Positions 3-15,683 of a stretch of 64,000 nt of DNA are shown here, one piece after another. The first letter of the stretch is position 1, and the number at the start of each line of letters is the position of its first letter. The position numbers were made by a program, and so were the translations under genes. Location: contig DASUHB010000074.1 of the NCBI GenBank assembly GCA_036273715.1, positions 62,001-126,000 on the forward strand, written 5' to 3'. Under the pieces are notes generated by a model. The model ran no database searches. It saw nothing but the letters and a program-made list of their open reading frames with translations, and had not been told where the DNA came from. The stretch is from Gemmatimonadaceae bacterium (lineage in GTDB: Bacteria; Gemmatimonadota; Gemmatimonadetes; Gemmatimonadales; Gemmatimonadaceae).

Positions 3-980
3 TTGGGCGAGTGCGACGCGAGCGAGCGCGAGCGTGTCGCGCGGTGGGTGGCCGAGGATGACGGGCGGCGCGGCGTGATCGAGGCCGTCCGGCGGCTGCT
101 CGACGAGCCAGGAGCATGGATCGGGGAATTTGATGCGCGTGCCGCGTGGCCGCGGCTCCTCCGGTCGGTGCGGCACCGCGAGCGGATCGTTCAGGTGCGG
201 GGCGAACGCGCGGGTCGTCTGGCGGGCGGCGCCGGCCGGAGAACGGCGGCGTGGGCGCTCGCGGCCGGCGTGCTGATTGCGTTAGGCGTTCGCATGTCGT
301 GGCGTCCGCTGGCGCGGCTGTTGTCGCAGCCGGCGCCGGCCGTGGCGATGCGCAGCGTCACGACAGGGCGTGGCCAGCGGGCGGTGATCGTGCTCACCGA
401 CGGCACGCGCGTGCAACTCGCCGCGGACAGCCGGATCACGTACCCAGCGACATTCACCGCCGGCGTCCGCACGGTGACGCTCGACGGAGAGGCCTACTTC
501 GATGTCCGGCACGACGACGCCCATCCGTTCGAAGTGCGCACGCGGACCGGCGTCGTCCGCGACATAGGGACGACGTTTCTCGTACGACAGTACCGCGAGG
601 ACACGCGGCTCGAGGTCGTCGTCGCGGCGGGACGCGTCGCGGTGGCCGGCATCACGATGAGCGCCGGCCACATGCTGCGGGTCGACAGCGTTGGGCGGGC
701 CGACGTGACCGCCGTGGATGCCCAACGGTACCTCGGCTGGATGCACGGGGCGCTCGTCTTCGATGACACACCGTTGGGAGAGGTGGCCGCAGAGCTGTCG
801 CGTTGGTACGACGCCGACGTCACGCTCGCGGACACGGCGATCGCGCGCCGGCGGTTCACCGGCACCTTCGGCGATGAACCGCTCGACTCCATCGTCCGCG
901 CACTCGCCGTGCCCATGCACGTTCGCGTCGAGCGACGAGGGCGAACCATCAGGTTCTTCCCGCTGCCGCACAATCGTTAG
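3..980 (+). CDS. FecR-family anti-sigma factor, 5' end cut by window edge
   Basis: Probable inner-membrane anti-sigma/sigma-regulator protein of a FecI-FecR-TonB receptor signalling unit. Visible parts are an N-terminal sigma-binding-like helix region (residues 1-60, GECDASERERVARWV), one membrane segment (about 83-99), a periplasmic FecR domain (about 115-205, with LTDGTRVQLAADSRITYP and GEAYFDV) and a C-terminal STN-like/DUF4974 part (about 245-320). Family members usually carry about 10-20 residues before the GEC motif, so the true start is probably left of the window; the TTG at 3 is only the first available codon. The partner ECF sigma factor would be expected just upstream, outside the window. 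The TonB receptor begins 76 bp downstream. The stop codon TAG lies inside a GTTAGGC motif. Confidence 0.85.
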   Translation: MGECDASERERVARWVAEDDGRRGVIEAVRRLLDEPGAWIGEFDARAAWPRLLRSVRHRERIVQVRGERAGRLAGGAGRRTAAWALAAGVLIALGVRMSWRPLARLLSQPAPAVAMRSVTTGRGQRAVIVLTDGTRVQLAADSRITYPATFTAGVRTVTLDGEAYFDVRHDDAHPFEVRTRTGVVRDIGTTFLVRQYREDTRLEVVVAAGRVAVAGITMSAGHMLRVDSVGRADVTAVDAQRYLGWMHGALVFDDTPLGEVAAELSRWYDADVTLADTAIARRRFTGTFGDEPLDSIVRALAVPMHVRVERRGRTIRFFPLPHNR

Positions 981-1056
981 GCAATAACCCGGCGATCTCC
1001 GTCCGACAATTCGATCCACCGTCAACGGGCCCGCCCCCCGGGCCGGAGGCACATCC

Positions 1057-3735
1057 ATGCGCGTCTACGCCGTCTGCCGTACCATCCTGCGCGCCGCGTG
1101 CGTCGTCCCGATCATCGGCGCGCATACGCCGCTGTTCGCGCAGGGCACCTCGCGTGCGCCGGCCGCGCGCTTCGCGCCCGACGCCGCCATCGACCTCCTG
1201 GGGTTCCAGGATTCGGCCGGCGCCGGCGCCAGAGTGACGCTCGTTGCCCACGAGGCGAAGTTAGGCGACATCCTCGCCGCCATCGCCCGGCAGACGGGCC
1301 GCACGTTGATGTACAGCCACGATGTCGTGGACGTCGACCAGCGGACGTCGATCGATGTGCACGATGCCGATCTCGCCACGGCGCTCGAGGCAGCCCTGCG
1401 CGGAACGCACATCATCGCACGCATCTCGGGGCACGATCGGATCGTGCTCGACCGCGCGCCCGACGCCGCGGCACACGCGGCCCGCCTGTCCGGCCGGGTC
1501 GTGGATGCGGCAGACGGCCGCGGCGTCCCACAGGCGAGCGTCGCCGTGCGCAACACGACGCACGCGACGCTCACCGGCGAAGACGGACGCTTCGTGCTCT
1601 CGGATGTCGAGAGCGGCACGCACGAGCTCGTCGTGCGACGAATCGGCTACGTCCCGTTAGTCCAAACGATCGCGCTCGCCGACGGCCAGGACACGGCGCT
1701 CTCGATTCGCTTGCAGCCGTCCACGAGCACCCTCGATAAGGTGATCGTGACGGGCACGATCCTCCCGACCGAAGTGAAGGCCATCCCGACGCCGGTGACG
1801 GTCGTGGAAGGAAGCCAGATCGAGCAACAAGGATTCCGGCATCTCGATCAGGCGATCCGCATGTACGTGCCGACCGCGCTCGCGTTCGACAACGGACCGA
1901 ATGCCGAGCAGGACCAGATCAGCGTGCGCGGCGCGAGCTCGCTGGCCACTGGATCGCCGATCAAGGTGTACGTCGACGGCATCGAAGTCGCGTCCGACGA
2001 CTTTTCGATGATCGACCCGGCGAGCGTCGACCGGATCGAGATCATTCGCGGCCCGCAGGCGGCCACGCTGTATGGCTCGGACGCGATCGGCGGCGTGATG
2101 CAGATCTTCACGAAGCACGGCAACGCGGCGCTCGACCGGCCCGAGCTGAATCTGGACGTATCGTTAGGCGACGTGCAGAGCCCGTACAAAAGCGGCGGCA
2201 CGCTGCGTCAGGCGTACTCGGCGACGGTCAACGGCGGGACGCCGTCGGCCAGCTACACGATTGGTGGGTCCTTCACGCACACGGGCGACTGGGTCCCCTA
2301 CTACTATCTCTCCACGCCGAGTGCGTTCGGCGCTGTCCACATCGCGCAAGACAAGTTGTCGCTGGACCTGTCCGGCCGATTCGTGAATACACAGGAAGCG
2401 ACAGCTGCGTCGCCGTTTCTCGTCGCGGCCGGCTTCTCGAGCCCGTTGCCGACGGTGGAACCGCAGGAGTACCGCCAGTCGACGTTGGGCGCGCGCCTAA
2501 CGTTCGATGCCGCGCCGCGGTGGCGGCACACGTTGACGTTGGGCGTGGATGGCCTGTCGTTCGACGATCACAACTCGCGCCCCCGGTTCACCACGCCGGA
2601 TGACAGCCTGATGTTCATCTACGTCGGGGAGCTGCGAAAGATGTCGGTCGGATACAACACGTCGCTGAGCGTGCCGATTTCGGCCTCGCTCACGGGCGCG
2701 GTGACGGCGGGCATCGATTACTACCAGTACACGATCAATCAGTTCAGCTCGAGCGGGGCCCTCACCAACTCGGGTGAGATCGTGACCGACTCGACGGCGC
2801 CCATTGACGCGACGCGCAGCATCACGACGAACACCGGCGTGTTCGGCCAGGCCCAACTGAACGTTGCCGACCAACTTTTCTTCACGGTCGGAGTGCGCGC
2901 CGAACACAACAATGACTTTGGCAGGCGACTCGGTACCCCCGTGTCGCCGCGGTTCGGTGCCTCATGGGCACGGACGCTGGGCGGAACGACGGTCAAGCTG
3001 CGTGCGTCCTACGGGCAGGCGATCCGCGCGCCCAGCCCGTTGGAGAAGGACTACGCCAAGAACGCGTTCGTCGAGACGCTGGCGAACGAGTCACTCGGTC
3101 CGGAACGCCAACGCGGCTTGGATGGCGGCGTCGACGTAGCGTTAGGTCGAGCCACGCTGAGCGCGACGTACTACAATCAGACTGCGACCGACCTCATCCA
3201 GTTCGTGCTGCTCGATGGAAACCAGGACCCGCAGGTTCGCCAGTACGAGAATGTCGGCCGCGTCGCGAATCGCGGGCTCGAGCTCGAGGCTGGACTCCAC
3301 CTGGGACGTGTCACCGCCACGGCGCAATTCGCGCACGCGACGAGTGTCGTGAAAGCCCTCGGGCCTGCGTACACCGGCGACTTGCAACCCGGTGATCAAG
3401 TGCTCGGCATTCCCCGCAACACGGCGGGCGCAAGCCTCGCCTGGTCGGCGCTGGCGAACACGACGCTCACGTTAGGCGTCGTCTACGTCGGCACGCGCAC
3501 GAACTACGACGATCGGGCGTTCTTCACCGATCCGAGCCGCAGCACGCTTCGCGACTATTGGACCGAATATCCGGCATTCACGAAGCTCAACATCGGCGTG
3601 TCGCACGCGCTGTCGAGCAGCGCGGCGGCGTTCGTGAGCATCGAGAACGTGGCCAACGTCAATCCCAGCGAGCAGTCCAATCTGACGCCGATCCAGGGCC
3701 GCATCTCGATGGTCGGCCTCCGGCTGCACTACTGA
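1057..3735 (+). CDS. TonB-dependent receptor with STN, carboxypeptidase-like and plug domains
   Basis: Outer-membrane active-transport receptor of 892 residues. Order of parts: signal peptide (1-29, ending LFAQ), STN/secretin N-domain (about 58-132), carboxypeptidase-regulatory-like domain (144-220, SGRVVDAADGRGVPQASV), plug (242-356, with YVDGIE, RIEIIRGPQAATLYG and DAIGGVMQI) and beta-barrel (about 370-892) ending in aromatic Tyr. An STN domain marks transducer-type receptors that talk to a FecR-like protein, and a FecR gene lies immediately upstream. It is followed by a BNR-repeat protein and a secreted S9 peptidase on the same strand, so it probably imports or senses a peptide or glycopeptide. 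The nearby lasso cluster makes a lasso peptide one candidate ligand; that is inference only. Confidence 0.93.
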   Translation: MRVYAVCRTILRAACVVPIIGAHTPLFAQGTSRAPAARFAPDAAIDLLGFQDSAGAGARVTLVAHEAKLGDILAAIARQTGRTLMYSHDVVDVDQRTSIDVHDADLATALEAALRGTHIIARISGHDRIVLDRAPDAAAHAARLSGRVVDAADGRGVPQASVAVRNTTHATLTGEDGRFVLSDVESGTHELVVRRIGYVPLVQTIALADGQDTALSIRLQPSTSTLDKVIVTGTILPTEVKAIPTPVTVVEGSQIEQQGFRHLDQAIRMYVPTALAFDNGPNAEQDQISVRGASSLATGSPIKVYVDGIEVASDDFSMIDPASVDRIEIIRGPQAATLYGSDAIGGVMQIFTKHGNAALDRPELNLDVSLGDVQSPYKSGGTLRQAYSATVNGGTPSASYTIGGSFTHTGDWVPYYYLSTPSAFGAVHIAQDKLSLDLSGRFVNTQEATAASPFLVAAGFSSPLPTVEPQEYRQSTLGARLTFDAAPRWRHTLTLGVDGLSFDDHNSRPRFTTPDDSLMFIYVGELRKMSVGYNTSLSVPISASLTGAVTAGIDYYQYTINQFSSSGALTNSGEIVTDSTAPIDATRSITTNTGVFGQAQLNVADQLFFTVGVRAEHNNDFGRRLGTPVSPRFGASWARTLGGTTVKLRASYGQAIRAPSPLEKDYAKNAFVETLANESLGPERQRGLDGGVDVALGRATLSATYYNQTATDLIQFVLLDGNQDPQVRQYENVGRVANRGLELEAGLHLGRVTATAQFAHATSVVKALGPAYTGDLQPGDQVLGIPRNTAGASLAWSALANTTLTLGVVYVGTRTNYDDRAFFTDPSRSTLRDYWTEYPAFTKLNIGVSHALSSSAAAFVSIENVANVNPSEQSNLTPIQGRISMVGLRLHY

Positions 3736-3802
3736 GCCGATGCCGTTTGCATCGATAGGAGAGGCGTCCGTGCGAGCTCGCCTAACTGAGGATCTGGCGT
3801 AT

Positions 3803-5701
3803 ATGCGAGTGAGTGTCATCATCACGATGCAGTGCGCGTGCGTCATGGCCGGTGGAGTTTTCGGCCAGGGAGGCCCGGCGATTCGGGTCGTGCAGTCGGA
3901 GCAGATCTCTGTAGCGCATCCCCGCCGGCCGCACATCGAAAGCTTTCTCGCTGTCGACCCGCGCGATTCACGACATATGATCGCCGCCTCGATGCTCGGG
4001 CTCGCCGATGGCCGCCTGGGGGCGGCTGTGTACGCGACGTTCGATGCCGGCCGCCACTGGACAGAATCACGGATCGCTCCGCGGGACAGCATGCTTTCGT
4101 TAGGCGGCGATCCGCTCGTCTATATCATGCGCGACGGAACGGCACTGTTCGGTGTCGGCACGCAACAGGCCGGCCGCTCCGTGACTGCTGTCAGCCGGTC
4201 GACTGACGGTGGACGCACGTGGGAGCGCCCGCAAGTGATGAATTACCGCGACCGTCCGTTCATGGCGTTCGATACGACGGGTACGGATCTCGATGGAACC
4301 ATCTACATAGCCGGTATCGACAACGGCCTCCTGCTCAGCCACTCGACCGATGACGGCCGGAGCTTCAGTTATCCGGCGATCATCACGCGTGATCTGGGCG
4401 GGCCCGACCCAAGCGCGCCGATCCGAGGCGTCCTAACCGACATGGTGGTCACGCCCGACGGTGTGCTGGTCATGCCGTTCAACAGTCGGCTCGACATGCG
4501 TGACTCGATACCGCGATTCAAGAAAGATTCGGTGATGACCAACGCGTTCCGAGTCCTCGTCTCGGACGACGGCGGGCGATCGTTTTTCGCGATGCGCGAG
4601 GGCCCTCGCGCGCATTGGGTGGTGAACTATGCAAATAGCCAGGCGCTCGGCGCGCCACGCGTGGCGCTCGATCAATCGCGAGGCACGTTTCGCGGCCGAC
4701 TCTATCTGGTGTGGACGGACTGGGACATCGCTCGCCGTGCCTACGTCGTGCGGCTCGCCTACTCGAGCGACGCCGGGAAAACGTGGAATACCACAGTCGT
4801 CAGCGATGACACCTCCGGCCACGATCCAGGCAACGCCGCGCTCGCCGTCACCAGAGACGGGATCGTTGGCGTGATCTGGAACGACCGGCGCGACGATCCG
4901 CGAAACCGCTGTTGGCGTCTCTACGGCGCAATCTCCGTTGATGGCGGCGCATCGTTCCTGCCTAACGCGAGATTGAGCACTGCGCCGACGTGCGTCAACA
5001 CTCCGGGCAACTGGGTGCTCAGCACCTGGTATGAGTACGATCACTGGACCGAACCGGACCGGCCGCGTCCAGGGTTCGGGGTGACCGCGTTGATCCCGGT
5101 GCGGTTTCCGAACGGCGGCGACACCCAGGGACTCGTTGCCGATGCCGATGGCGTATTCCACGCCGCGTGGATCAACGGCGCGACGGGAACGCTTCAGCTC
5201 TGGCACACCGCGTTCGCGGTCGACTCGGCGATCGTGGCGGCGGTACGGAACAAGAACGAGCGGAAGATGGCCGGCTCGGCGGCCACGCCCGTGCCGTCGG
5301 GGCGTGTGGATGTCACGCAGGAACTCAGCTTCGTCATGAGCCACCCGGCGATCGACTTCACACGCGGCACGCTCGAGGTCACGATGCGGGTGAAGAATGC
5401 GACGGGCCTCACCGTGCATGGGCCGATCGAGGTTGTCGTCGACCGTCTGAAGGCCGACTGGTCTAACGCAATGGGCCTCGCGAACCTTCGGGTCGCGAAT
5501 GCCGACAGTGGCGGCGGCGGCCTGGGTGCGACGTGGGTGTTCGCCGCCGGCGCCGATCGCATGTTGCATCCCGGCGCCACGACGCCGCCACGCGTGTTGC
5601 GATTCCGCTTCGATGGCGGCGTGCCCGACGAGCCCGACGGCTACTTCGAGCCCGCGTTTCGCATCCTCGCCCGCAGCACCGGCGCGGCTGGCCAACGTTA
5701 G
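3803..5701 (+). CDS. Secreted BNR/Asp-box repeat protein (sialidase-like propeller)
   Basis: Exported protein of about 632 residues built on a sialidase-type propeller. Repeated Asp-box motifs (S/T-x-D-x-G-x-x-W/F) are visible as TFDAGRHW, STDGGRTW, STDDGRSF, SDDGGRSF, SSDAGKTW and SVDGGASF. I chose the ATG at 3803 because it begins a normal signal peptide (MRVSVIITMQCACVMAGGVF) and has GAGGA about 10 bp upstream. A GTG at 3770 behind AGGAGAGG and an ATG at 3740 are alternatives that would put acidic residues before the signal peptide. I cannot identify a complete set of sialidase catalytic residues, so enzymatic activity is not claimed; Asp-box propellers also serve as binding scaffolds. It lies between the TonB receptor and the S9 peptidase. 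Confidence 0.8.
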   Translation: MRVSVIITMQCACVMAGGVFGQGGPAIRVVQSEQISVAHPRRPHIESFLAVDPRDSRHMIAASMLGLADGRLGAAVYATFDAGRHWTESRIAPRDSMLSLGGDPLVYIMRDGTALFGVGTQQAGRSVTAVSRSTDGGRTWERPQVMNYRDRPFMAFDTTGTDLDGTIYIAGIDNGLLLSHSTDDGRSFSYPAIITRDLGGPDPSAPIRGVLTDMVVTPDGVLVMPFNSRLDMRDSIPRFKKDSVMTNAFRVLVSDDGGRSFFAMREGPRAHWVVNYANSQALGAPRVALDQSRGTFRGRLYLVWTDWDIARRAYVVRLAYSSDAGKTWNTTVVSDDTSGHDPGNAALAVTRDGIVGVIWNDRRDDPRNRCWRLYGAISVDGGASFLPNARLSTAPTCVNTPGNWVLSTWYEYDHWTEPDRPRPGFGVTALIPVRFPNGGDTQGLVADADGVFHAAWINGATGTLQLWHTAFAVDSAIVAAVRNKNERKMAGSAATPVPSGRVDVTQELSFVMSHPAIDFTRGTLEVTMRVKNATGLTVHGPIEVVVDRLKADWSNAMGLANLRVANADSGGGGLGATWVFAAGADRMLHPGATTPPRVLRFRFDGGVPDEPDGYFEPAFRILARSTGAAGQR

Positions 5702-5743
5702 GTTGGTCGATCGCCCGTTTCACAATATTGGAGTAACTCCGGC

Positions 5744-8092
5744 ATGCACATGCATCGACTGTCCGCGGCGGCGATCCTTTGCCTAACCGCGATGGCTTCC
5801 GCGTCCCGCGCGCAACAGGTCAAGCCCTTGTCCATCGAGGACGCGCTGGCCACGCGCACGTTCGGGATCTACGCGCCAATCTCGGTGTCGCCCGACGGAC
5901 GCTGGGTCGCGTACACCATCGTGGATCCGCGAAAGCGGCGAAGTCACAGTGAGAAGGCGCCTAACTTTCTCTCGACTGGCGCGTCGCGCGACGCCGAAGG
6001 CGCCGAGCTGTGGATCGCCGACACGAAAACGGGCGCCACGCGAGATCTCACCGGGCACACCGGGAATAGCTGGGATGGCGTGTGGTCACCGGATGGATCT
6101 CAGCTCGCTTTCTACAGTGACCGTGACGGAATGGCGCGCCTCTGGGTGTGGGACCGCGCAACGGCAACGGTACGCCGCGTCTCCTCCGTGATTCCGCGGG
6201 CGTGGGTGATGTTTGAATCGCCCGAGTGGACGCCCGATGGGGCGGCACTGATCGTGAAGGTCCTTCCGGAAGGCGACACGATCGGGCCTGCCGGAGACAG
6301 CGCTGCGAAGGCCGCCCTCGCGCTGCCTAACGATAGCACCCCGACGGCGGAGGTGCGGACGGCGAATATCGGTCGCTCCGACACGGCGCGTGTCGATAGC
6401 GGCTCGAACCCGGCAGCCATCGCGGACCTTGCGCTCGTGCGAATCTCGGACGGCACCGTGCGGCGCCTCGTCCGGCGATCGCAAATTATGGAATACTCGG
6501 TGTCGCCGACCGGCGAGCGGGTCGCCTATACGATACTCAGTGGGGTGGTGGTCACGCCCGAGATCACCTGGGTGTACGACATCGGCGTCACAGATCTGAA
6601 AACCGGTGCGACACGGATCATCGCGCACCGCGTTCCGAATTTCTGGGGGCCGACAATCAGCTGGTCGCCGGATGGTCTGCACATCGCGTTCACCACCAAG
6701 CCCCACAGCTACGGCCTGGAGAACCTTCCCGATCGACCGTTGCCACCCGGTGACTGCTACGTCGCCAGCGTGCTGAACGACTCGGTTCGCGACCTGACGC
6801 CGGGCGCGCACGTCGATCTCGGCACCAGCTTCCACGCGCCCGTGTGGAGTGCTAACGGTTCAACCCTGTTCCTGGTAGGCGGAGGCGCGCTCTGGCGCGT
6901 CGACGCCCAACGAGGTGGACTTGAACCCGTCGGTCGCGTACCGGGACGCGCAGCAGTCGCCATCATCACGACCGGACCCTTTGCCCGACCGTGGCCGTCT
7001 AACGCCGGCGACACGCTATTCGTGCGAACGCTCGATGAACGAACCTTGAAAGTGGGGGTCGCGCGCATCGATGTACGCACCGGTGTCAGCGAGCTCGCCT
7101 ACGAGGACGACGAATGGCTGCCCGTTGCAAGCCGCACAGCGTTGGGCATGGCGGCCGCGGCCGACGTGTTCGTCTACCAGCGCGAGAGCGCGGCGCATCC
7201 GGGCGACCTGTGGGTCGCGGAGCCGAAGTTCCTCGCGCGGCGGCGCCTCACGCACATCAATCCGCAGCTCGATGACTACGTGTTCGGAGAGCGGCGTCTC
7301 ATCTACTGGCGCAGCGATGATGGTGACTCGTTGCGCGGCGCGCTGCTTCTACCCGCGGGTTACAAAGCCGGCAAGCGCTATCCGCTGATCTCGTGGCAAT
7401 ACGGCGGCGAAACCTGGTCAATGTTCGCGAACAACTTCGGCGTGATTCCGATATTTGTCGACTACATCCAGATCCTGGCGACCCGCGGCTACGCAGTGCT
7501 TGTTCCCGATGCGCCGCAGCACATCGGCACGCCCATGCTGGATCTCGCAAAGACGGTACTGCCGGGCGTCAATCGCGCGATAGAGCTCGGCGTCGCCGAC
7601 CCGGCGCGACTCGGGATCATGGGACTCAGCTATGGCTGCTTCTCGACACTCATGCTCATCGTGCAAACGACGCGCTTCAAAGCGGCGGAGTGCGGCTCGG
7701 GTGCGTCGAGCATCATTGGAATGACAGGAACCGAGCTAGGCTGGGCTTGGGCGGATTCCGGACAAGGCAAGATGGGCGCGACAGTGTGGCAGCGGCGAGA
7801 CCGATACATCGAGAACTCGGCCTACTTCTATCTCGATCGCGTGGCGACGCCGATTCTGATGGTCAACGGGACCGCGGACCCTGGAGTGCCATCGTTCCTT
7901 GCGGACGAGACCTACGCAGCGCTCCGCCAGTTAGGCAAGCGCGTCGAATATGTGCGCTATGTCGGCGAAAGCCATGGCCCAATGGCATACAGCCGCGCCA
8001 ACGTCACCGACTACCTGAATCGCCTGGTGCGATGGTTCGGAACCTATCTGAGTGACTCGTCGAGTCACGCCACGCCCGACTCGATTCGTTAG
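5744..8092 (+). CDS. Secreted S9 prolyl-oligopeptidase-family serine peptidase; possible lasso isopeptidase
   Basis: Exported serine peptidase of 782 residues with a signal peptide, an N-terminal PD40/WD40-like propeller (SPDGRWVAYTI, WSPDGSQLAFYSDRDG, WSPDGLHIAFTTKP) and a C-terminal alpha/beta hydrolase. The triad is visible: Ser629 in GLSYGC, Asp712 in NGTADPGVP and His744 in GESHGPM. GGAG lies upstream of the ATG. The family cleaves short peptides; one branch (AtxE type) opens the isopeptide bond of lasso peptides and is coded beside lasso clusters together with FecR and TonB receptor genes. This gene has exactly such neighbours, facing the lasso operon tail to tail. Its C-terminal domain also looks like generic secreted S9 peptidases, so the isopeptidase role is a hypothesis. 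Confidence 0.9.
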   Translation: MHMHRLSAAAILCLTAMASASRAQQVKPLSIEDALATRTFGIYAPISVSPDGRWVAYTIVDPRKRRSHSEKAPNFLSTGASRDAEGAELWIADTKTGATRDLTGHTGNSWDGVWSPDGSQLAFYSDRDGMARLWVWDRATATVRRVSSVIPRAWVMFESPEWTPDGAALIVKVLPEGDTIGPAGDSAAKAALALPNDSTPTAEVRTANIGRSDTARVDSGSNPAAIADLALVRISDGTVRRLVRRSQIMEYSVSPTGERVAYTILSGVVVTPEITWVYDIGVTDLKTGATRIIAHRVPNFWGPTISWSPDGLHIAFTTKPHSYGLENLPDRPLPPGDCYVASVLNDSVRDLTPGAHVDLGTSFHAPVWSANGSTLFLVGGGALWRVDAQRGGLEPVGRVPGRAAVAIITTGPFARPWPSNAGDTLFVRTLDERTLKVGVARIDVRTGVSELAYEDDEWLPVASRTALGMAAAADVFVYQRESAAHPGDLWVAEPKFLARRRLTHINPQLDDYVFGERRLIYWRSDDGDSLRGALLLPAGYKAGKRYPLISWQYGGETWSMFANNFGVIPIFVDYIQILATRGYAVLVPDAPQHIGTPMLDLAKTVLPGVNRAIELGVADPARLGIMGLSYGCFSTLMLIVQTTRFKAAECGSGASSIIGMTGTELGWAWADSGQGKMGATVWQRRDRYIENSAYFYLDRVATPILMVNGTADPGVPSFLADETYAALRQLGKRVEYVRYVGESHGPMAYSRANVTDYLNRLVRWFGTYLSDSSSHATPDSIR
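8052..8068. repeat. 17-bp perfect inverted repeat in the S9 peptidase 3' end
   Basis: Arms GTGACTCG and CGAGTCAC pair around a single T. It is inside the last codons of the S9 peptidase and 30 bp left of the strong terminator-like palindrome, so it may help fold the transcript end. It could also be chance. Confidence 0.4.
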
Positions 8093-8098
8093 GCGCGT

Positions 8099-8124
8099 GG
8101 GCGTGTGCCGGCCGGCACACGCCC
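8099..8124. terminator. Bidirectional hairpin between S9 peptidase and lasso operon
   Basis: Perfect 26-bp palindrome: left arm GGGCGTGTGCCGG, right arm CCGGCACACGCCC. It starts 7 bp after the S9 peptidase stop and lies 61 bp beyond the last lasso precursor, at the meeting point of two converging transcripts. No U-run follows, so it would work as a strong GC hairpin or as an RNA-end protector rather than a textbook intrinsic terminator. Confidence 0.6.
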
Positions 8125-8185: not shown

Positions 8186-8335
8186 CTAGAGCCCGAACCC
8201 CACGTCTCCCGCAATGCCCTGCAGCGGCGCGCCCGAAGGCTCGAGCGGGAAATGGCTCCTGACGCGCGTTGCAAGCACGGCATCGCCACGCTCGATCAGC
8301 CGCGGCGCCTCGTAAGTCCGCTCTTCTTTCCGCAT
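8186..8335 (-). CDS. Lasso peptide precursor A1 (49 aa)
   Basis: Ribosomally made precursor of a lasso peptide. The leader (residues 1-24) fits the lasso signature exactly: Y8-EA-P11-R-L13-IER-G17-DAVLA-T23-R24, where Y/P/L/G bind the B1 recognition element and Thr at -2 marks the B2 cleavage site. The 25-residue core therefore starts VRSHFPLE, placing Glu at core position 8 for an 8-residue macrolactam, and ends AGDVGFGL. The start ATG at 8335 has GGAGGGTC just upstream. It is the last gene of the operon, 92 bp after precursor A2, with which it shares leader spacing, LEPxG and AGxxxFGL. Val at core position 1 is unusual, because most known lasso peptides begin with Gly. Confidence 0.88.
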   Translation of the reverse strand: MRKEERTYEAPRLIERGDAVLATRVRSHFPLEPSGAPLQGIAGDVGFGL

Positions 8336-8427: not shown

Positions 8428-8577
8428 CTAGAGACCGAAACTGGTCTCGCCTGCCGTGTCCTTGGGCTTGACGCCGTTCGGCTCCAGCGTGCCGAACACC
8501 TTCATGCGCGTTGCAGACACCGCGTCGCCCTTCTCCTCGAGCGACGGCGCCTGGTACGATCTTGGCTTGCGTTGCAT
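8428..8577 (-). CDS. Lasso peptide precursor A2 (49 aa)
   Basis: Second lasso precursor with the same layout as A1: leader Y8-QA-P11-S-L13-EEK-G17-DAVSA-T23-R24, then a 25-residue core starting MKVFGTLE and ending AGETSFGL. Glu is again at core position 8. The ATG at 8577 follows a near-perfect Shine-Dalgarno (AGGAGGGATCA). The shared features LEP, Gly11 and AGxxxFGL, against otherwise divergent loops, say the two products have the same ring size and a related tail but different surfaces. Met at core position 1 is unusual for the ring-forming residue. The cyclase gene C ends 74 bp upstream. No tailoring-enzyme gene separates the precursors from the core operon. Confidence 0.9.
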   Translation of the reverse strand: MQRKPRSYQAPSLEEKGDAVSATRMKVFGTLEPNGVKPKDTAGETSFGL

Positions 8578-8650: not shown

Positions 8651-10480
8651 CTACTGCGCCCGACCCCACCTGCCGGTCCGCATCCGAAGCCACAAGTCGA
8701 GCGCCAACGCGTTGAGCACCTGGCCGCGCTCGATTTCTCCGTCCACTGTCGCCGCTTTCTCGATCGCCGCGCGCAGCGGCGCGATCTCGATACAACCCAG
8801 CTCGGCGAGCACCGAGTGCTCGAGCAGCGCATCGAACCGATGGCGCTCGTGCACGAGCGACCACGCAATGCGCCCGTCGAACGCGCCCTTCCACCGCCGC
8901 CCGCGAATGATTTCGGGAAGACACCCGCGCATGGCCTCGCGCAGGATCCATTTCCGCTCGTTAGGCCGTCGGCTCACTTCGGCCGGCAGCGCAAGCGCGA
9001 ATTCCACGAGCGGCCGATGGCAGAACGGGTATCGGACGTCGACCGCATCGGGCACGATCCCGTGGTCGATCGCCGCCGAAATGGCCGAGGTCGAAAACGC
9101 GAGCTCGTGCGCGTACTGTGCGCCGCGCCTCCCGGCGTAACTTTGGGCCACGACAGATCGCTCGGTTAGGCGGAGACGCTGCCGCTCAGCCGCCGGGATC
9201 CACTGTGGCGCCTCCACGCCGCGCGCCCTGCGCAAGCGAAAGGCGCTCGGCACGAGTGGCAGCACCGCGTTCAAGTATGCGAGCTTCCAGAACGACACCC
9301 GCCCCAACGCTGCCCAACGAAGCATCTCGTGTAGCGCCCGCTGCAACTGCCCGGTCGCGATCCAGTCAGCAAAGAAGAACATGCTGCCCACCAGGTAGTG
9401 GTCCGATCCGACTCCTGAGAGCAGCACGCGCGCACCGGCGCCATCGAGCAGCACACAGGTCGCGATATCGCGGGCGGCCAACAGACAACGGGACGAGGGC
9501 AAGTCAGAGTTCGGCACCTGCCGGGACGCGGCCTGCAACGGCACGTAGTCGACGAGCAGCTCATTGCGAATGCCGTACGTCTGGACCACGCTGTCGGAGT
9601 AGATCCGCTCGTCCGAGCCGGCGCCAACCGAGTCGACATACGTCAGTGTCCCGCCCACGCCAGTCGCGACATCTCCACGACGCTCCAACGTCTGAGCGAT
9701 CGAGACGATCGACGATGAGTCGAGACCACCCGAAAGCTCCGACCAGGTGCCAGCGTCCCCAGTTAGGCACAGCCGCACCGCATCGAACAGCAGCGATCGA
9801 AACTCCTCGACCGCAGCCCCCTCGTCGCGCACAGACTTCGGCTCGAACTCCGTCGGCGACCAATACGTGCGCACCTCGATCGACCCTCCGCGCACCACCG
9901 CCATGCTCGCGGGCGGCACAGACCGGACACCCGCGTACGCCGTGCGGCCGGCCTCCGACTCCACCCCCGCCGCGAACTCGATCAGATAGTCGGAGTCGTA
10001 GGCGTCGCCCGTCGCGATGGCCTCCGCCCGCGTCGCAAACACCGTCACGTCCCCGCGCTGTGCGCTGTACAGCGTCCGAACGCCAAACGCGTCGCGCGCC
10101 GCGAGCGCAGTTCCCGAGCGCGCGTCTGCGATCACCAGCCCGAAGTCGCCGAGCAAATCGGCGATCGCTCGCTCGCCGAAGCGACGATAGTGGCGCATCG
10201 CCAGCGCCACGTCGCTCACCGGCTCGTCCGTTAGGCCATACCGGCCACACAGCGCATCGCGGTTCTCGAGACGCATCCATCCGGCGGCAATCAGCGAACC
10301 AAACGCCGCAACATCGAGCACGCCGGGCTGGCCCTCGCGCGAGAACAGGACAGTCACGGCGCCGCACTCGAGCCGGTCGAGCGTGACGTTGCGCGCGCTG
10401 CAATAGCGCTCGACGCCGGTCGTTTCCGTCGCCGGCACGCGCTCGCCGCGCGAATGCACGAAACACGCGAAGAACTTCAC
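8651..10480 (-). CDS. Lasso cyclase C (asparagine synthetase-like)
   Basis: ATP-dependent enzyme of about 609 residues that activates the Glu8 side chain by adenylation and closes the macrolactam around the threaded tail. The C-terminal synthetase domain carries the PP-loop SGGLDSSS (residues 250-257) and LLSGVGSDHYLVG. The N-terminal glutaminase-like domain starts MKFFACFVHS and lacks the catalytic Cys at position 2, as expected when glutamine is not the amide donor. The start is GTG at 10480, overlapping the B2 stop by 4 bp (GTGA). Free-standing asparagine synthetases would keep Cys2, and this one sits between B2 and the precursors, so the lasso role is well supported. Confidence 0.9.
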   Translation of the reverse strand: MKFFACFVHSRGERVPATETTGVERYCSARNVTLDRLECGAVTVLFSREGQPGVLDVAAFGSLIAAGWMRLENRDALCGRYGLTDEPVSDVALAMRHYRRFGERAIADLLGDFGLVIADARSGTALAARDAFGVRTLYSAQRGDVTVFATRAEAIATGDAYDSDYLIEFAAGVESEAGRTAYAGVRSVPPASMAVVRGGSIEVRTYWSPTEFEPKSVRDEGAAVEEFRSLLFDAVRLCLTGDAGTWSELSGGLDSSSIVSIAQTLERRGDVATGVGGTLTYVDSVGAGSDERIYSDSVVQTYGIRNELLVDYVPLQAASRQVPNSDLPSSRCLLAARDIATCVLLDGAGARVLLSGVGSDHYLVGSMFFFADWIATGQLQRALHEMLRWAALGRVSFWKLAYLNAVLPLVPSAFRLRRARGVEAPQWIPAAERQRLRLTERSVVAQSYAGRRGAQYAHELAFSTSAISAAIDHGIVPDAVDVRYPFCHRPLVEFALALPAEVSRRPNERKWILREAMRGCLPEIIRGRRWKGAFDGRIAWSLVHERHRFDALLEHSVLAELGCIEIAPLRAAIEKAATVDGEIERGQVLNALALDLWLRMRTGRWGRAQ

Positions 10481-10914
10481 GGCAGGAGATCCTCGAGCGG
10501 CACGTAGAACGCGACGTGCTCGGCGATGTCGTTGAGGGGCTCGCCATTGGTCTCGACCCATGCGTGCGCCCCGAAGGGATACGCCTGTGCGCCTAACCGC
10601 AGGCGCGCCGGCACCGACGATCGGCGCAGCAAGGCGTAGAGCGTGACCGACTGTTCGAGGCACAGCGCGCGACCGGGAAAGAGCGCGGCTGCCTTCGCGA
10701 CTGACTCCTCCACGCTGCGCGCGGTGGCCATGTCGCGTTGCGCACGCACGGCGCAACGGCGATCCAGCCACCGAACGACCTTCACTGTGCGGCCGAGACC
10801 CAGGAACCGGAGGGAAAGGCGCACGCACGACAGAACCATCAAGCTCTGACACAACCCTGGCGCCCTGCGCGACACGTCGAGCCGCGACACGCGGACGTTC
10901 GACGATCCGGTCAT
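10477..10914 (-). CDS. Lasso leader peptidase B2 (transglutaminase-like)
   Basis: Cysteine protease of 145 residues that removes the lasso leader after the Thr-x pair, guided by B1. The Cys-His-Asp triad of the family is visible: Cys85 in RALCLEQS, His117 in GAHAWVE and Asp129 in PLNDI. The N-terminal 60 residues are helical and basic, as in other B2 proteins. The ATG at 10914 overlaps the exporter stop (ATGA) and the stop overlaps the cyclase start, so B2 is translationally coupled on both sides. Confidence 0.9.
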   Translation of the reverse strand: MTGSSNVRVSRLDVSRRAPGLCQSLMVLSCVRLSLRFLGLGRTVKVVRWLDRRCAVRAQRDMATARSVEESVAKAAALFPGRALCLEQSVTLYALLRRSSVPARLRLGAQAYPFGAHAWVETNGEPLNDIAEHVAFYVPLEDLLP

Positions 10915-12752
10915 AGACCCTCCTCCAGCATCCGCGGTGCGTGTTGCGCGCACAGCGGGCCGCGCGACGGCCGCGCGCTGCGCTCGCCACGCCACTGCCG
11001 CTCGTAGAGCCGCCGATAGACCCCGCGCCTCGCGATCAGTTCATCGTGACAACCGTGCTCCACCACGCGGCCGTGGTCGAGCACGATGATTTGATCCGCG
11101 CTCTCGACTGTCGACAGCCGATGCGCAACAACGAACGTCGTGCGGCCTCGCCGCAGCACGTCCAGACCCTCCTGCACTGCGGCCTCACTTTCGGCATCGA
11201 GACTCGACATGGCCTCGTCCAGCACGATGATCGATGGCGCACCGATCAGTGCGCGGGCGATCGTGAGCCGCTGCCGCTGCCCGCCGGACAGCCCGACGCC
11301 GCGCTCGCCCACCATCGTCGCATATCCGTTAGGCATCGCCGCGATGAACGCATCGCAACCGGCGAGGCGGGCGGCGATTCTTACATCGGCCATGGCCACG
11401 CCATGCCGCCCGCACCGAATGACGTCCGCGATGGTGCCCGAGAAGAGCACGTCATCCTGCAACACCGCGCCGACGAACGCGCGATAGCCTCGACGCTCGA
11501 GGCAAGCCAGATCACGCCCGTCGATCAGCACGCGGCCCTCCGTCGGACGGTCGAACGCCAGGAGCAGTCGGCACACCGTGCTCTTGCCCGCACCGCTCGC
11601 ACCCACGAGTGCGACGGTCGTGCCCGGCGCCGCGAAGAAGCTCACGTCGCGCAGCGCGTACGCGCCCGCGTGATATCCGTAGCTCACGTGCTCCAGCTCG
11701 ACGGCGCCCAGTACCTGATGTACGGGCGACGTGCCGCGATCCTCGGCGTATTCGTTAGGCATCGCGCGGAGCTCGCGAATGCGCGCCAGTGCCGCGCTGG
11801 CCTGCCCGATCTCGCTGCTCATCGCCGCCGCTTGCACGAGCGGCGTGGTGAGCAGTCCGGTGAGATAGGCGATCATCGCCAGGTCGCCTAACGTCATGGC
11901 GCCGGATGCGATGGCCGTGGCGCCGCCCACCAGCAGCAGTAGCGCCACGGCTCCGCTCCCCGCCGTCACACCCGCCGTGAGTCTCGCGCTGCGTCGAACG
12001 GCGTCGACGACAGCCTCGCTCAGCGCACGCGATCGCCGCGCGAACGCGTCGCACTGCCATTGCTCGCTACCGCGGCTCTTGATGGCGCGAATGCCAACCA
12101 CCGACTCCGTCAGCCGCGCACCGACCGCGGCCTGTCGCTCGCAGACGGCGGCGTGCGCCGCCGAGACGCCGGCATACGCGCGTGCGACACGCATCACGGC
12201 AACGGAGAAGAGTATGCCTAACCCGAGGGCGATCGGCCACGCCACCCAGGCAATGATCACGAACGCGACGACGGCCATGATGACCGCTCCGCTCAGCGAC
12301 ACGACGATGGGCCCGATCAGTCCACGAAGCCGATCGGTGTCGTCCAGGATCCGCGACGATAGCTCGCCCGCGGGCGCAGCATCGAAGTAGCGCACCGGGA
12401 GCCGGATCACGTGCGCATGGAGCTCGTCGCGCACGCGCGTGACGATGCGCTGCGCGCCTTCCCCCGCGAGCGTCGTCGTTCGAGAGGCGGTGCTGGCTTC
12501 CACGACGACCGCCGCCAACACGAGCCCGCCTAACGGAACGATGACGCCGGACCGGTGGGCGCCGATCACGTCGTCGATGGCCACCTTCGCCGCCACGGGC
12601 ATCGCCAGCGCCGCGGCTCGATTGAGCGAGACGAGACCGATCCCCCGCGCCACCAAGCTGCGTTCGCGCCAGAGGAGCGAGACGATGTCGCGCCAGAAAT
12701 TCGCGGGCCCGGCGCCGGCAGGCTGCAACATCGGCCGCATCATCGGTCGCAT
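10911..12752 (-). CDS. Lasso peptide ABC exporter D
   Basis: Half-transporter of 613 residues: six-helix membrane domain (about 30-325) then an ATPase domain. Visible motifs are Walker A GASGAGKST (384-392), Q-loop Gln432, signature LSGGQ (488-492), Walker B IIVLDE (508-513) and H-loop His544. It should dimerise and export mature lasso peptides, giving self-protection. The annotated ATG (12752) overlaps the end of B1 by 13 bp; Met4, Met5 or Met8 could also be used. There is no N-terminal C39 peptidase domain, consistent with leader removal by B2. An exporter beside a TonB receptor/S9 pair is notable because the best-known isopeptidase-type loci often lack one. Confidence 0.9.
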   Translation of the reverse strand: MRPMMRPMLQPAGAGPANFWRDIVSLLWRERSLVARGIGLVSLNRAAALAMPVAAKVAIDDVIGAHRSGVIVPLGGLVLAAVVVEASTASRTTTLAGEGAQRIVTRVRDELHAHVIRLPVRYFDAAPAGELSSRILDDTDRLRGLIGPIVVSLSGAVIMAVVAFVIIAWVAWPIALGLGILFSVAVMRVARAYAGVSAAHAAVCERQAAVGARLTESVVGIRAIKSRGSEQWQCDAFARRSRALSEAVVDAVRRSARLTAGVTAGSGAVALLLLVGGATAIASGAMTLGDLAMIAYLTGLLTTPLVQAAAMSSEIGQASAALARIRELRAMPNEYAEDRGTSPVHQVLGAVELEHVSYGYHAGAYALRDVSFFAAPGTTVALVGASGAGKSTVCRLLLAFDRPTEGRVLIDGRDLACLERRGYRAFVGAVLQDDVLFSGTIADVIRCGRHGVAMADVRIAARLAGCDAFIAAMPNGYATMVGERGVGLSGGQRQRLTIARALIGAPSIIVLDEAMSSLDAESEAAVQEGLDVLRRGRTTFVVAHRLSTVESADQIIVLDHGRVVEHGCHDELIARRGVYRRLYERQWRGERSARPSRGPLCAQHAPRMLEEGL

Positions 12753-13051
12753 CGAAGCAGCGACTCGCCCAGCATTTGTCGGATGAGGAGCTCAGCGTCC
12801 CGTTCGCCCCGCTCGCGCGACACGTCGTATTCGGCGCACACCCGGTTCACAATCTCGACGAATGGCACGCCTTCACACACCAGCGCCCAAATGCGGCTCC
12901 CGACTTCGTTGAGGGTGTAGTAACGGCCGTGCGCTACGTCGAGCAGAACGGTTTCGTCGCCGCGCGTGGTTGCTCGCACCTGCGGACATCGCGCGAATCG
13001 CGAGGTGTGAACCTGGGTAGCGCTATTTCGTTGCTTGCGGCGATACCACAT
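12740..13051 (-). CDS. Lasso B1, PqqD-like leader-binding protein
   Basis: RiPP recognition element of 103 residues that grips the YxxPxL part of the leader and presents it to B2. The PqqD fold is visible in RGDETVLLDVAHGRYYTLNEVGSRIWALV (residues 30-58, split here by description), followed by a helical half ending LLIRQMLGESLL. The ATG at 13051 has GAGGAAGG directly upstream; longer upstream reading in this frame has no homology and crosses the regulator gene. B1 is the first gene of the lasso operon, 97 bp after the stop of an AraC-type regulator on the same strand, with an inverted repeat in the gap. Confidence 0.9.
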   Translation of the reverse strand: MWYRRKQRNSATQVHTSRFARCPQVRATTRGDETVLLDVAHGRYYTLNEVGSRIWALVCEGVPFVEIVNRVCAEYDVSRERGERDAELLIRQMLGESLLRCDR

Positions 13052-13148: not shown

Positions 13149-13931
13149 TTACGTGGCGCGCGAATGTGGTTGGACAAGCGCCGCGAACCGCTCGAGCTGG
13201 ACCTGAAATCCACCATGAACGCGCAGCGACGTCGGCGAACATCCGCAGTAGCGCGCAAGCAGATTCGCGATCGCCGCGCTCGACGAAAACCCGAGATCCG
13301 CCGCGACACGCTTGGGCCGATGCCCGAGCACATCGAGGCGCCACGCCGCGTGCAACGCCACGCACCACCCCACAATGCGATGCGCAGGCGGCATTCCCGC
13401 CGCTGCGAGGCGATTCTCGAGGGTGCGACGCGCCACGCCGAGCAGCATCGATGCTCGCTCGACATGCAGGCGCGGCGATGGCGACGCCGCACACACCAGC
13501 AGAAATGCGCGCGTGCGGAACGGTACCAACGGCCCGACTCGCTCGAGGATGGCCAGATCCGAGCCGGCTTCGGGCTGCTTGCCTAACGCCGCCACCAGTG
13601 CGTCCGCGATGGGCGCCACGCCGCGCAGGCTCAGGCGCGCCGGAACGCGGGCTCCCGCCAGACGCACGACATCACCCGCCGCCGCGTCGGCGAGCGACTC
13701 GCGGACGACGATGGCCGGCAGCTCCCCGCGCGACGATGCATCGGTGAGCACAGGAATCACCGAAGCACCAACCGCATCGCGCAGCTCGGTGACCACCAAC
13801 TGCACGTCGGCGGCCGAGAGCATCCCGCGCAAGGCATCTGCGCGCTCGCAGAGGCGCACCGATGTCCGCCTGCCAAGTGCGCGGTGGATCGCGGCGCGAT
13901 CCGCGCGGTCGAGGAGCAGGCCCGCCACCAT
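13149..13931 (-). CDS. AraC-type transcriptional regulator
   Basis: DNA-binding protein of 260 residues. The C-terminal third (about 160-245) is an AraC double helix-turn-helix (ASMLLGVARRTLENRL, then RVAADLGFSSSAAIANLLARY). The N-terminal 150 residues look like a degenerate receiver or Rossmann-like domain without recognisable phospho-acceptor residues. It is transcribed toward the lasso operon and ends 97 bp before B1, so it is the best local candidate for controlling it. No clear ribosome site precedes the ATG. A relative with the same layout lies at 17354-18292. The divergent peptide-binding-protein gene begins 102 bp away. Confidence 0.75.
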   Translation of the reverse strand: MVAGLLLDRADRAAIHRALGRRTSVRLCERADALRGMLSAADVQLVVTELRDAVGASVIPVLTDASSRGELPAIVVRESLADAAAGDVVRLAGARVPARLSLRGVAPIADALVAALGKQPEAGSDLAILERVGPLVPFRTRAFLLVCAASPSPRLHVERASMLLGVARRTLENRLAAAGMPPAHRIVGWCVALHAAWRLDVLGHRPKRVAADLGFSSSAAIANLLARYCGCSPTSLRVHGGFQVQLERFAALVQPHSRAT

Positions 13932-14033
13932 GGCTGCCCAGCAAGCGCACTACAACGTCGTACAACGAAGCATGGACGAGCCCGCCATGCCTCGATAAGT
14001 TGCCGCCCAACGGAATGCAGACGGAGGCTCTCC

Positions 14034-15683
14034 ATGCAGTTCGTCCAACGAGCTCGTGACTGCTGTCGGGTCGTCGGCTGCTCGACGCTTGCGTTGGGCG
14101 CCTCGTGCGCGCAGGCGCACGACCCATCGCGCGATCACACACTCGTCGTCGCGCTGGCGGCGGAGCCGACGCTGCTCTTGCCGCCCCTGCTCGGCGAAAC
14201 GCCGGGCTTCATTGTCGCCGACCAGATTCTGGAGCGCCTCGCCGAACCCGATTCCACGCTCGACACGAGAGGCGATCGCGCGTTCCGGCCGCGGCTCGCC
14301 GAAAGTTGGACATGGGCCGAGGATTCCCTCTCGATTGCCTTTCGCATCGCTGCAGACGCGCGCTGGCACGACGGCCTCCCGGTCACCGCCCGCGACGTGC
14401 GCTTTACGTTCACGCTCTACACCGACACCGCCGTCGCATCCCCGGCGGCATCGCTGCTCGCCAACATCGACTCCGTCCACGTACGAAACAAGCACGTCGC
14501 GGTGTTCTGGTTCCATCGCCGGCATGCCCAACAGTTCTTTGATGCCACGTACCACATGCGGATTCTTCCCGAGCACCTGCTCGCCGGTTTGCCGCGTCCT
14601 GCGCTGCGCCACGGCGCGTTCGCGCGCGCGCCGACGGGCAGCGGCCCGTTCCGCTTCACGCGATGGGTCCCTGGACAACTGCTCGAGCTGGAATCGGACA
14701 CGATGTATCGCGGCGGCCGATCGCACTTCCGTCGTCTCGTTTTCACGATTGCGCCTGACCCATCGGCGGCGTTGATCCGCGCGCTTGATCGGGAAGTCGA
14801 TGTGCTTCCCAACGTCGAGCGCCCGCAGATCGCTGGCGTCGCGCGGTCGCGCACGCTGTCGCCGGTGCGATGGGCGTCGCTGTCGAGCGGCCTCGTGATG
14901 CTGAACCTGCGCGATCCGGGATCGCGCCGCCGGCCGCACGCCATCCTCGGCGATCCGTCCGTTAGGCGAGCGCTGACCGCGGCCATCGATCGCACGCGCC
15001 TCACCAGCGCCGCGTTGGGCGAAAGCGCTACCGCCGCCACCGGACCTCTGCCCGCGGCGTTGCTGCGCGGTGCGCCGGCGCTGCTTCCCCAACCCGATCT
15101 GCCGCTCGCCATGTCTCTGCTGGACGATGCCGGTTGGACTATGCCTTCCGACCGGGACACTCGTCGCCGCGACGGTACGCCGCTCCGATTCACGCTGCTC
15201 GTGTCGACCACAGCTCCGGTAGGCCAGCGCGTCGCCGTGCTCATGCAGGACGAACTGCGACGTGTGGGCGCCGACATGGATGTCGAGCCCGTAGACAATG
15301 CCACACTCGCCGCGCGGCTTTCGGCTCATCGCTTCGACGCCGCACTCGTCGCCCTTGACTGGGACCCCAGCCCGTTCAGCGCCCGACAGCTCTGGGGCAC
15401 GCCGAGCAATCCGGCCGCCGAGACGTCCAACTTCAGCGGGTACAGCGATTCCGTATTCGACTCGTTGATCGACGCAGCGGACACTGCGCGCGACTCGACA
15501 ACCGCACGCATCGCGGAACGGCGCGCATGGCGGACACTCGTTCATGACGCGCCAGCAATTTGGCTCTACGACTTCGAGCGCGTCGCCGCCATCCGCCGGT
15601 GCATCCAGCCGCGAGGTGTTCGCGCCGATGCGTGGTGGGCCGGGCTGTCCCGATGGACCGTCCGCGACGGCTGCCAGCCCTGA
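14034..15683 (+). CDS. Peptide ABC transporter substrate-binding protein (SBP family 5)
   Basis: Exported solute-binding protein of 549 residues of the OppA/DppA type. It has a signal region (1-28), then LVVALAAEPTLLLPPLL, the family core RPRLAESWTWAEDSLSIAFRI (given only in part), WHDGLPVTARDVRFTF and a C-terminal lobe ending with a Trp-rich stretch. GGAG stands 8 bp before the ATG. No permease or ATPase follows, so it is an orphan binding protein that would have to work with a transporter elsewhere. It is divergent from the AraC-type regulator at the edge of the lasso region, and family members bind peptides, so recapture of a lasso or linearised peptide is a possible role; this is inference. 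Confidence 0.85.
   Translation: MQFVQRARDCCRVVGCSTLALGASCAQAHDPSRDHTLVVALAAEPTLLLPPLLGETPGFIVADQILERLAEPDSTLDTRGDRAFRPRLAESWTWAEDSLSIAFRIAADARWHDGLPVTARDVRFTFTLYTDTAVASPAASLLANIDSVHVRNKHVAVFWFHRRHAQQFFDATYHMRILPEHLLAGLPRPALRHGAFARAPTGSGPFRFTRWVPGQLLELESDTMYRGGRSHFRRLVFTIAPDPSAALIRALDREVDVLPNVERPQIAGVARSRTLSPVRWASLSSGLVMLNLRDPGSRRRPHAILGDPSVRRALTAAIDRTRLTSAALGESATAATGPLPAALLRGAPALLPQPDLPLAMSLLDDAGWTMPSDRDTRRRDGTPLRFTLLVSTTAPVGQRVAVLMQDELRRVGADMDVEPVDNATLAARLSAHRFDAALVALDWDPSPFSARQLWGTPSNPAAETSNFSGYSDSVFDSLIDAADTARDSTTARIAERRAWRTLVHDAPAIWLYDFERVAAIRRCIQPRGVRADAWWAGLSRWTVRDGCQP

Follow-up and report, generated by a model that had tools for sequence, protein, structure and literature searches.

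A FecI/FecR, TonB receptor and S9 peptidase unit facing a lasso peptide operon in Gemmatimonadota: a candidate re-import and cleavage module outside the AtxE lineage

Introduction

In the lasso peptide clusters of astexin, sphingopyxin and benenodin, a FecI sigma factor, a FecR anti-sigma factor, a TonB-dependent receptor and an S9-family isopeptidase of the AtxE/AtxE2 type (NCBIfam model NF033523) are encoded in convergent orientation to the lasso genes. AtxE2 and its relatives, which come from such a gene setting, were shown in vitro to open only their own threaded lassos, and the purpose of isopeptidase-linked lassos has been called enigmatic (PMC9266682). The rubrinodin cluster, described as intermediate between two known kinds of lasso cluster, combines an ATP-binding cassette (ABC) exporter with an isopeptidase, a TonB receptor and FecI/FecR (PMC9266682). 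Here a locus of related layout is described from a 64,000-nucleotide stretch of the genome of a Gemmatimonadaceae bacterium (assembly GCA_036273715.1, contig DASUHB010000074.1, positions 62,001 to 126,000), referred to below as the window. Its FecI-FecR-TonB receptor-S9 peptidase unit converges on a lasso operon, as in the AtxE clusters. This unit probably represents a dedicated module for sensing, re-importing and cleaving lasso peptides, assembled in Gemmatimonadota separately from the AtxE module and acting as its functional analogue.

The source genome is 4.34 Mb in size, and its nearest public relatives are Gemmatimonadaceae genomes from metagenomes. No description of lasso clusters of this kind in Gemmatimonadota was found in the open-licence literature, represented mostly by abstracts.

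Organisation of the locus

The FecR, TonB receptor, BNR and S9 genes follow each other on the plus strand, and all four have clear Pfam matches, which bears out an earlier note made from the window sequence. The opposing lasso operon postulated there is also real: on the minus strand an AraC-type regulator, B1, the ABC exporter, B2, C and two precursors run towards the S9 gene, and 94 bases separate the S9 stop codon from the end of the last lasso gene. The window thus contains B1, B2, C and precursors with the YxxP leader motif and Thr(-2) that define a lasso cluster, the threaded product being predicted. The S9 protein likewise has the PF00326 catalytic domain and the propeller repeats of its family.

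Several properties are shared with the AtxE systems, namely an enzyme of the S9 fold that has a Ser-His-acid triad and an apparent signal peptide, and a receptor with an STN-like domain, which in the window is a probable one. Unlike in the AtxE clusters, the S9 enzyme comes from another lineage and the receptor is distant and carries an additional CarboxypepD_reg domain; the precursors close the operon at its 3' end, adjacent to the S9 gene, whereas those of AtxE loci are upstream of B2; B1 is a separate gene, an AraC regulator replaces GntR, and the predicted cores do not start with Gly. As compared by description, the rubrinodin cluster also pairs an ABC exporter with an isopeptidase, a TonB receptor and FecI/FecR, so that the combination of exporter and isopeptidase, by which the earlier note set the window apart from astexin-type loci, is not unique (PMC9266682).

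For reference, nine AtxE loci on alphaproteobacterial plasmids (L136, L137 and L141-L147) were inspected, and in all nine the order sigma factor-FecR-TonB-isopeptidase runs tail to tail into C-B2-A; the isopeptidase of L141 is encoded though unannotated. In the Asticcacaulis sp. DW145 locus (L142:1765-3465) an ABC transporter gene is located directly upstream of the sigma factor, and this could be another case of an exporter combined with an isopeptidase.

Conservation of the pairing in Gemmatimonadota

The conservation of this arrangement was followed in close relatives (one genome per species, yielding L025, L026 and L027) and in a sample of 394 genomes of the class, 31 of which had a match to the C protein at E <= 1e-30 and were inspected around this gene. 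The reverse analysis used the S9 and TonB proteins as queries against the same sample. FecI-FecR-TonB-S9 units facing lasso genes were found at about 10 Gemmatimonadota loci, with protein identities down to about 35-40%. In L025 and L026 the unit faces A2-A1-C-B2-ABC-B1-AraC, and L027 shows a window-like gene order as far as the contig end inside A1. In four other Gemmatimonadaceae loci (L058, L061, L064 and L067) it converges on C-B2(-B1). At L060 the S9 gene faces C at a contig end, and the apparent other half, FecI-FecR-TonB with the S9 N-terminus, ends contig L170. A partial locus from another family of the same order (L073) has TonB-S9 facing C.

With about 20 S9 matches in the window's genome, an S9 gene would be expected by chance beside C in convergent orientation at only a few percent of loci, an estimate to be read with the loci not being fully independent. 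The recurrence of gene order and orientation across divergent loci therefore indicates that the pairing is more than a coincidence. The strongest S9 matches in the sampled class are either lasso-linked (G000, G282, G390, G057, G060 and G172) or belong to a group of six solo genes. For the receptor, full-length window-type proteins with at least about 38% identity are lasso-linked in L025, L026, L027, L061, L064, L067, L073 and, across contigs, L170; to those of the first seven, all adjoining lasso genes, the window receptor is 38-95% identical over about 840 amino acids. The proposal that FecIR-TonB-S9 stays beside lasso genes in relatives is thus supported, with the same convergent layout as in AtxE loci. 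The pairing is real, conserved and biologically meaningful.

Of the genes named in the earlier note, the BNR gene is not a constant one. It occurs at this position only in the window and L027; because it is missing from L025 and L026, it was rejected as a part of the module. The BNR protein shows a weak match to solved sialidases.

Within the Gemmatimonadota loci the ABC exporter is common to the window, L025, L026 and L059 only, and it is absent from L060, L061, L064 and L067, so a full cycle of export and recapture would operate only in part of the group.

In L025 (L025:7601-14746) the two precursors are faced by three S9 genes in tandem, which share 66, 90 and 77% identity with the window S9. 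This suggests duplication and divergence, perhaps for different substrates.

Position of the S9 peptidase relative to AtxE

Residues Ser629, Asp712 and His744 of the window S9, pointed out in the earlier note, do align with the S9 catalytic triad. Generic S9 proteins carry the same triad, and its conservation was therefore discarded as evidence.

Against NF033523 the window protein scored 139.3 bits, below the curated cut-off of 400, compared to 796.8 bits for a genuine AtxE (L137). Membership in the AtxE family by this score was rejected, since similar values were obtained for a lasso-free S9 and for other S9 proteins encoded in the source genome. Trees of up to 49 S9 proteins place AtxE in a separate clade with a support of 100. 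A joint clade of AtxE and the Gemmatimonadota lasso-linked S9 proteins was rejected by the approximately unbiased test (p-AU 2e-51 with L067 included; 2.1e-4 at full length without it), as well as on the catalytic domain alone in another alignment (p-AU 0.011). Without L067, a single clade of the Gemmatimonadota lasso-linked S9 proteins was not rejected (p 0.49, and 0.3 in a second test); a clade including L067 was (p-AU 2e-5), and the L067 protein groups with two sphingomonad plasmid S9s. As far as sequence comparison can tell, the window S9 is not a member of the AtxE family. It groups apart from AtxE, but for the most part together with other lasso-linked S9 proteins. The earlier note had counted a place deep among generic S9 peptidases against its proposal, and this is seen only in part. 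A module for lasso recapture and cleavage remains the best reading from context, while affiliation with AtxE is not supported.

Receptor and cyclase lineages

The window receptor shares only about 23-31% identity over partial stretches with the receptors of AtxE loci, at about 50 bits or less, and its CarboxypepD_reg domain is absent from the L137 receptor. A joint clade of window-type and AtxE-locus receptors was rejected with all receptors included and also without L058, whose TonB protein belongs to another receptor lineage, and L059. When two long-branched receptors were dropped as well, both lasso receptor groups fell on one side of a branch. Since the result varies with the receptors included, the TonB tree was abandoned as proof of separate origin, and only the low similarity and the additional domain are taken to distinguish the receptors. 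The C proteins of the Gemmatimonadaceae S9-linked loci group with those of L059 and L076 (support 99), far from the C proteins of AtxE loci.

The STN domain of the window receptor scored 26.1 bits, slightly below the Pfam threshold of 28.4, and that of the L026 receptor, 65% identical, scored 41.3. The N-termini of the receptor and of the S9 protein, judged by eye, are typical of Sec signal peptides. This assigns the S9 enzyme to the periplasm, the compartment into which the receptor would import a lasso.

Predicted lasso precursors

The two precursors, each 49 residues long, both have homologues in L025, L026 and L027. Cores were assigned by Thr(-2) and an acidic residue at ring position 8 or 9, and all are predictions. 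In all 14 precursors of the Gemmatimonadaceae S9-linked loci (window, L025, L026, L027, L058, L060, L061, L064 and L067) the predicted first residue is other than Gly (M, V, I, A, L, S, N, Q or H), Asp or Glu is at position 8, and the peptide ends in SFGL or G[FY]xL. Lasso cores starting with Leu and Trp are also known. Gly1 is predicted in 13 of 13 precursors from loci of the same class without S9, where the FxL-type end is absent; the precursors of L073 and L059 also have Gly1 and no FxL-type end. A 2025 paper lists Gly, Cys, Ser and Ala as the first lasso residues observed experimentally and reports Asn1 as new (PMC12670498). That last case, metanodin, has an isopeptidase gene and resembles the window in its non-Gly ring start, assigned by the same Thr(-2) rule; it comes from Steroidobacterales of the Proteobacteria, in contrast to the window with its predicted Met1 and Val1 and to relatives with Ile, Leu, Gln, His, Asn, Ala and Ser (PMC12670498).

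A role of the FxL tail as a tag for the S9 or TonB protein is disfavoured, since the tail is kept where the S9 (L067) or the receptor (L058) is of another lineage. As it follows the clade of the C protein despite these exchanges, it more likely serves cyclisation than recognition by receptor or peptidase.

Other features of the locus

The coordinates of all features are given in Table 1. A palindrome between the converging operons is a possible two-way transcription stop. The AraC regulator is also kept in L025 and L026, with weaker conservation in L059 and L076. The divergently encoded solute-binding protein is kept beside the operon in L025 and L026, and it is speculated to be an accessory component, maybe taking up products.

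Table 1. Coordinates and supporting matches of the locus features (positions in the window unless a contig is named)
Feature	Position	Strand	Support and remarks
FecI-type extracytoplasmic function (ECF) sigma factor	L003:19199-19867		Sigma70_r2 6.4e-15; directly upstream of FecR, outside the window
FecR-like anti-sigma factor	3..980	+	Pfam FecR 4.5e-20, FecR_C 1.5e-14; ATG 27 bases before the window edge
TonB-dependent receptor	1057..3735	+	STN-like signalling domain, CarboxypepD_reg, Plug, TonB barrel 1.9e-37
BNR/sialidase-like propeller protein	3740..5701	+	BNR_2 1.7e-10; between receptor and S9
S9 peptidase	5744..8092	+	Peptidase_S9 PF00326 1.3e-20, PD40 propeller 2.2e-14; apparent signal peptide
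Perfect 26-base palindrome (13+13)	8099..8124	none	Between the converging operons
Precursor A2	8186..8335	-	Leader ...LATR; predicted core VRSHFPLE-PSGAPLQGIAGDVGFGL, predicted Val1-Glu8 ring
Precursor A1	8428..8577	-	Leader ...SATR; predicted core MKVFGTLE-PNGVKPKDTAGETSFGL, predicted Met1-Glu8 ring
Lasso cyclase C (asparagine-synthase-like)	8651..10480	-	PF00733 4e-35, NF033535 9.5e-52; probable start GTG 10480
Lasso B2 leader peptidase	10477..10995	-	NF033537 82.9 bits (cut-off 33)
ABC exporter	10911..12752	-	ABC_membrane and ABC_tran; between B1 and B2
B1, PqqD-like leader-binding protein	12740..13051	-	PF05402 5.8e-14; probable start ATG 13051
AraC-type helix-turn-helix regulator	13149..13931	-	HTH_18 6.6e-8; head of the lasso operon
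Lone family-5 (oligopeptide/nickel type) solute-binding protein	13884..15683	+	PF00496 7.3e-62; divergent from the AraC regulator

Proposed function and alternative explanations

The gene content suggests the following course of events. B1, B2 and C would process both precursors to lassos whose ring has 8 residues, and the ABC protein would export these lassos. The TonB receptor would bind the returning lasso, perhaps with cargo, and its STN domain would signal to FecR and FecI, raising expression of their own operon with the receptor and the enzyme. The receptor would then bring the lasso into the periplasm, where the S9 enzyme, a candidate lasso isopeptidase from outside the AtxE lineage, would open or cut it, either ending its action or releasing the cargo. 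This last step is proposed by analogy with AtxE2-type enzymes, which open their own lassos.

Several observations weigh against such a dedicated module. Action of the S9 enzyme on the isopeptide bond is something we infer, and the enzyme lies outside the AtxE clade. The lasso-free solo S9 of L121 scored 144.7 bits against NF033523, matching the window protein, which means that the S9 lineage is not lasso-specific. The six solo S9 genes (L120-L125, 32-37% identical) have neither lasso genes nor a window-type TonB gene in view, and at L169:1099-7501, the sole exception among the closer receptors, a FecI-FecR-TonB unit (receptor 43% identical) is followed by a generic S9 and then unrelated genes, with no lasso genes in view. 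The earlier note had counted occurrence of the unit in relatives without lasso genes against its proposal, and this is seen only in part, as solo S9 genes and as a single FecI-FecR-TonB unit whose S9 is a different one. The receptors of L173-L177, which share 32-36% identity and are accompanied by FecIR, are not lasso-linked either, and at L059 the TonB gene directly faces lasso genes with no S9 in between. Finally, an AlphaFold model of the S9 protein, built with six sequences, had a mean predicted local distance difference test score (pLDDT) of 45 and left the catalytic domain unresolved, so the substrate cleft could not be judged from it. The L169 unit may import lassos made by others. The solo S9 proteins of L123, L124 and L125 are nearly identical even though the genomes that encode them are placed in different families (f7, f4 and f7) within the class, which suggests a recent transfer or contigs binned wrongly.

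Part of these observations would fit an ordinary peptide uptake operon, next to which the lasso genes lie incidentally. The source genome has about 20 S9 matches scattered over 4.3 Mb, and there are solo S9 relatives, as well as FecIR-TonB units from the wider subfamily, that have no lasso genes. However, divergent loci keep the convergent pairing, their S9, TonB and C lineages are coherent, and the pairing is matched by the proteobacterial AtxE loci, which makes general scavenging an unlikely explanation. Immunity appears similarly improbable. Here the lassos would be antimicrobial, the S9 enzyme and the exporter would protect the producer by destroying lasso that re-enters the periplasm, and the TonB receptor would be the entry door, in line with the presence of an exporter, the three S9 copies in L025, and the uptake of the antimicrobial lasso microcin J25 by a siderophore-type outer-membrane receptor (PMC11006600). 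One would, however, not expect a producer in need of protection to carry a gene for importing the lasso in that very operon, and known isopeptidase-associated lassos mostly lack antimicrobial activity (PMC9266682).

The least probable of the functions considered is maturation, in which the S9 enzyme, instead of opening the ring, shortens the exported product at its conserved FxL end or elsewhere. The confinement of the FxL-type end to the S9-linked Gemmatimonadaceae clade speaks for it. L067 nevertheless keeps this end though its S9 is from another lineage, the end tracks the C-protein clade so that cyclase recognition explains it equally well, and removal of the leader is already covered by B2. 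The dedicated sensing, re-import and cleavage module thus remains the preferred explanation. The simplest account of its origin is that in Gemmatimonadota the lasso genes gained their link to the functional slots (sigma/anti-sigma factors, TonB receptor and periplasmic S9 enzyme) in a separate event, and that components such as the S9 of L067 and the TonB receptor of L058 were exchanged afterwards, with the slots kept. The alternative is an ancient shared module in which both the S9 enzyme and the receptor were replaced; it also implies selection for the slots.

As the cutting enzyme belongs to another branch of its family than in Proteobacteria, such a module seems to have arisen on two occasions. 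The window and its relatives may represent a second lineage of lasso isopeptidases that evolved independently and has a receptor lineage of its own. It would act on FxL-tailed lassos that start with large residues other than Gly (Met, Val, Ile, Leu, Gln or His) and, in the subclade of the window, work with a dedicated exporter in a full cycle of synthesis, export, recapture and opening; we give this fuller proposal slightly less than an even chance. The predicted cores, if true, would broaden the range of first residues known to be accepted by lasso cyclases. If two such lineages exist, their comparison can reveal the features that count. Should lasso genes have become tied to the same functions on two occasions, with different components but one layout, recapture and cleavage are probably what these peptides are for and not a by-product of descent.

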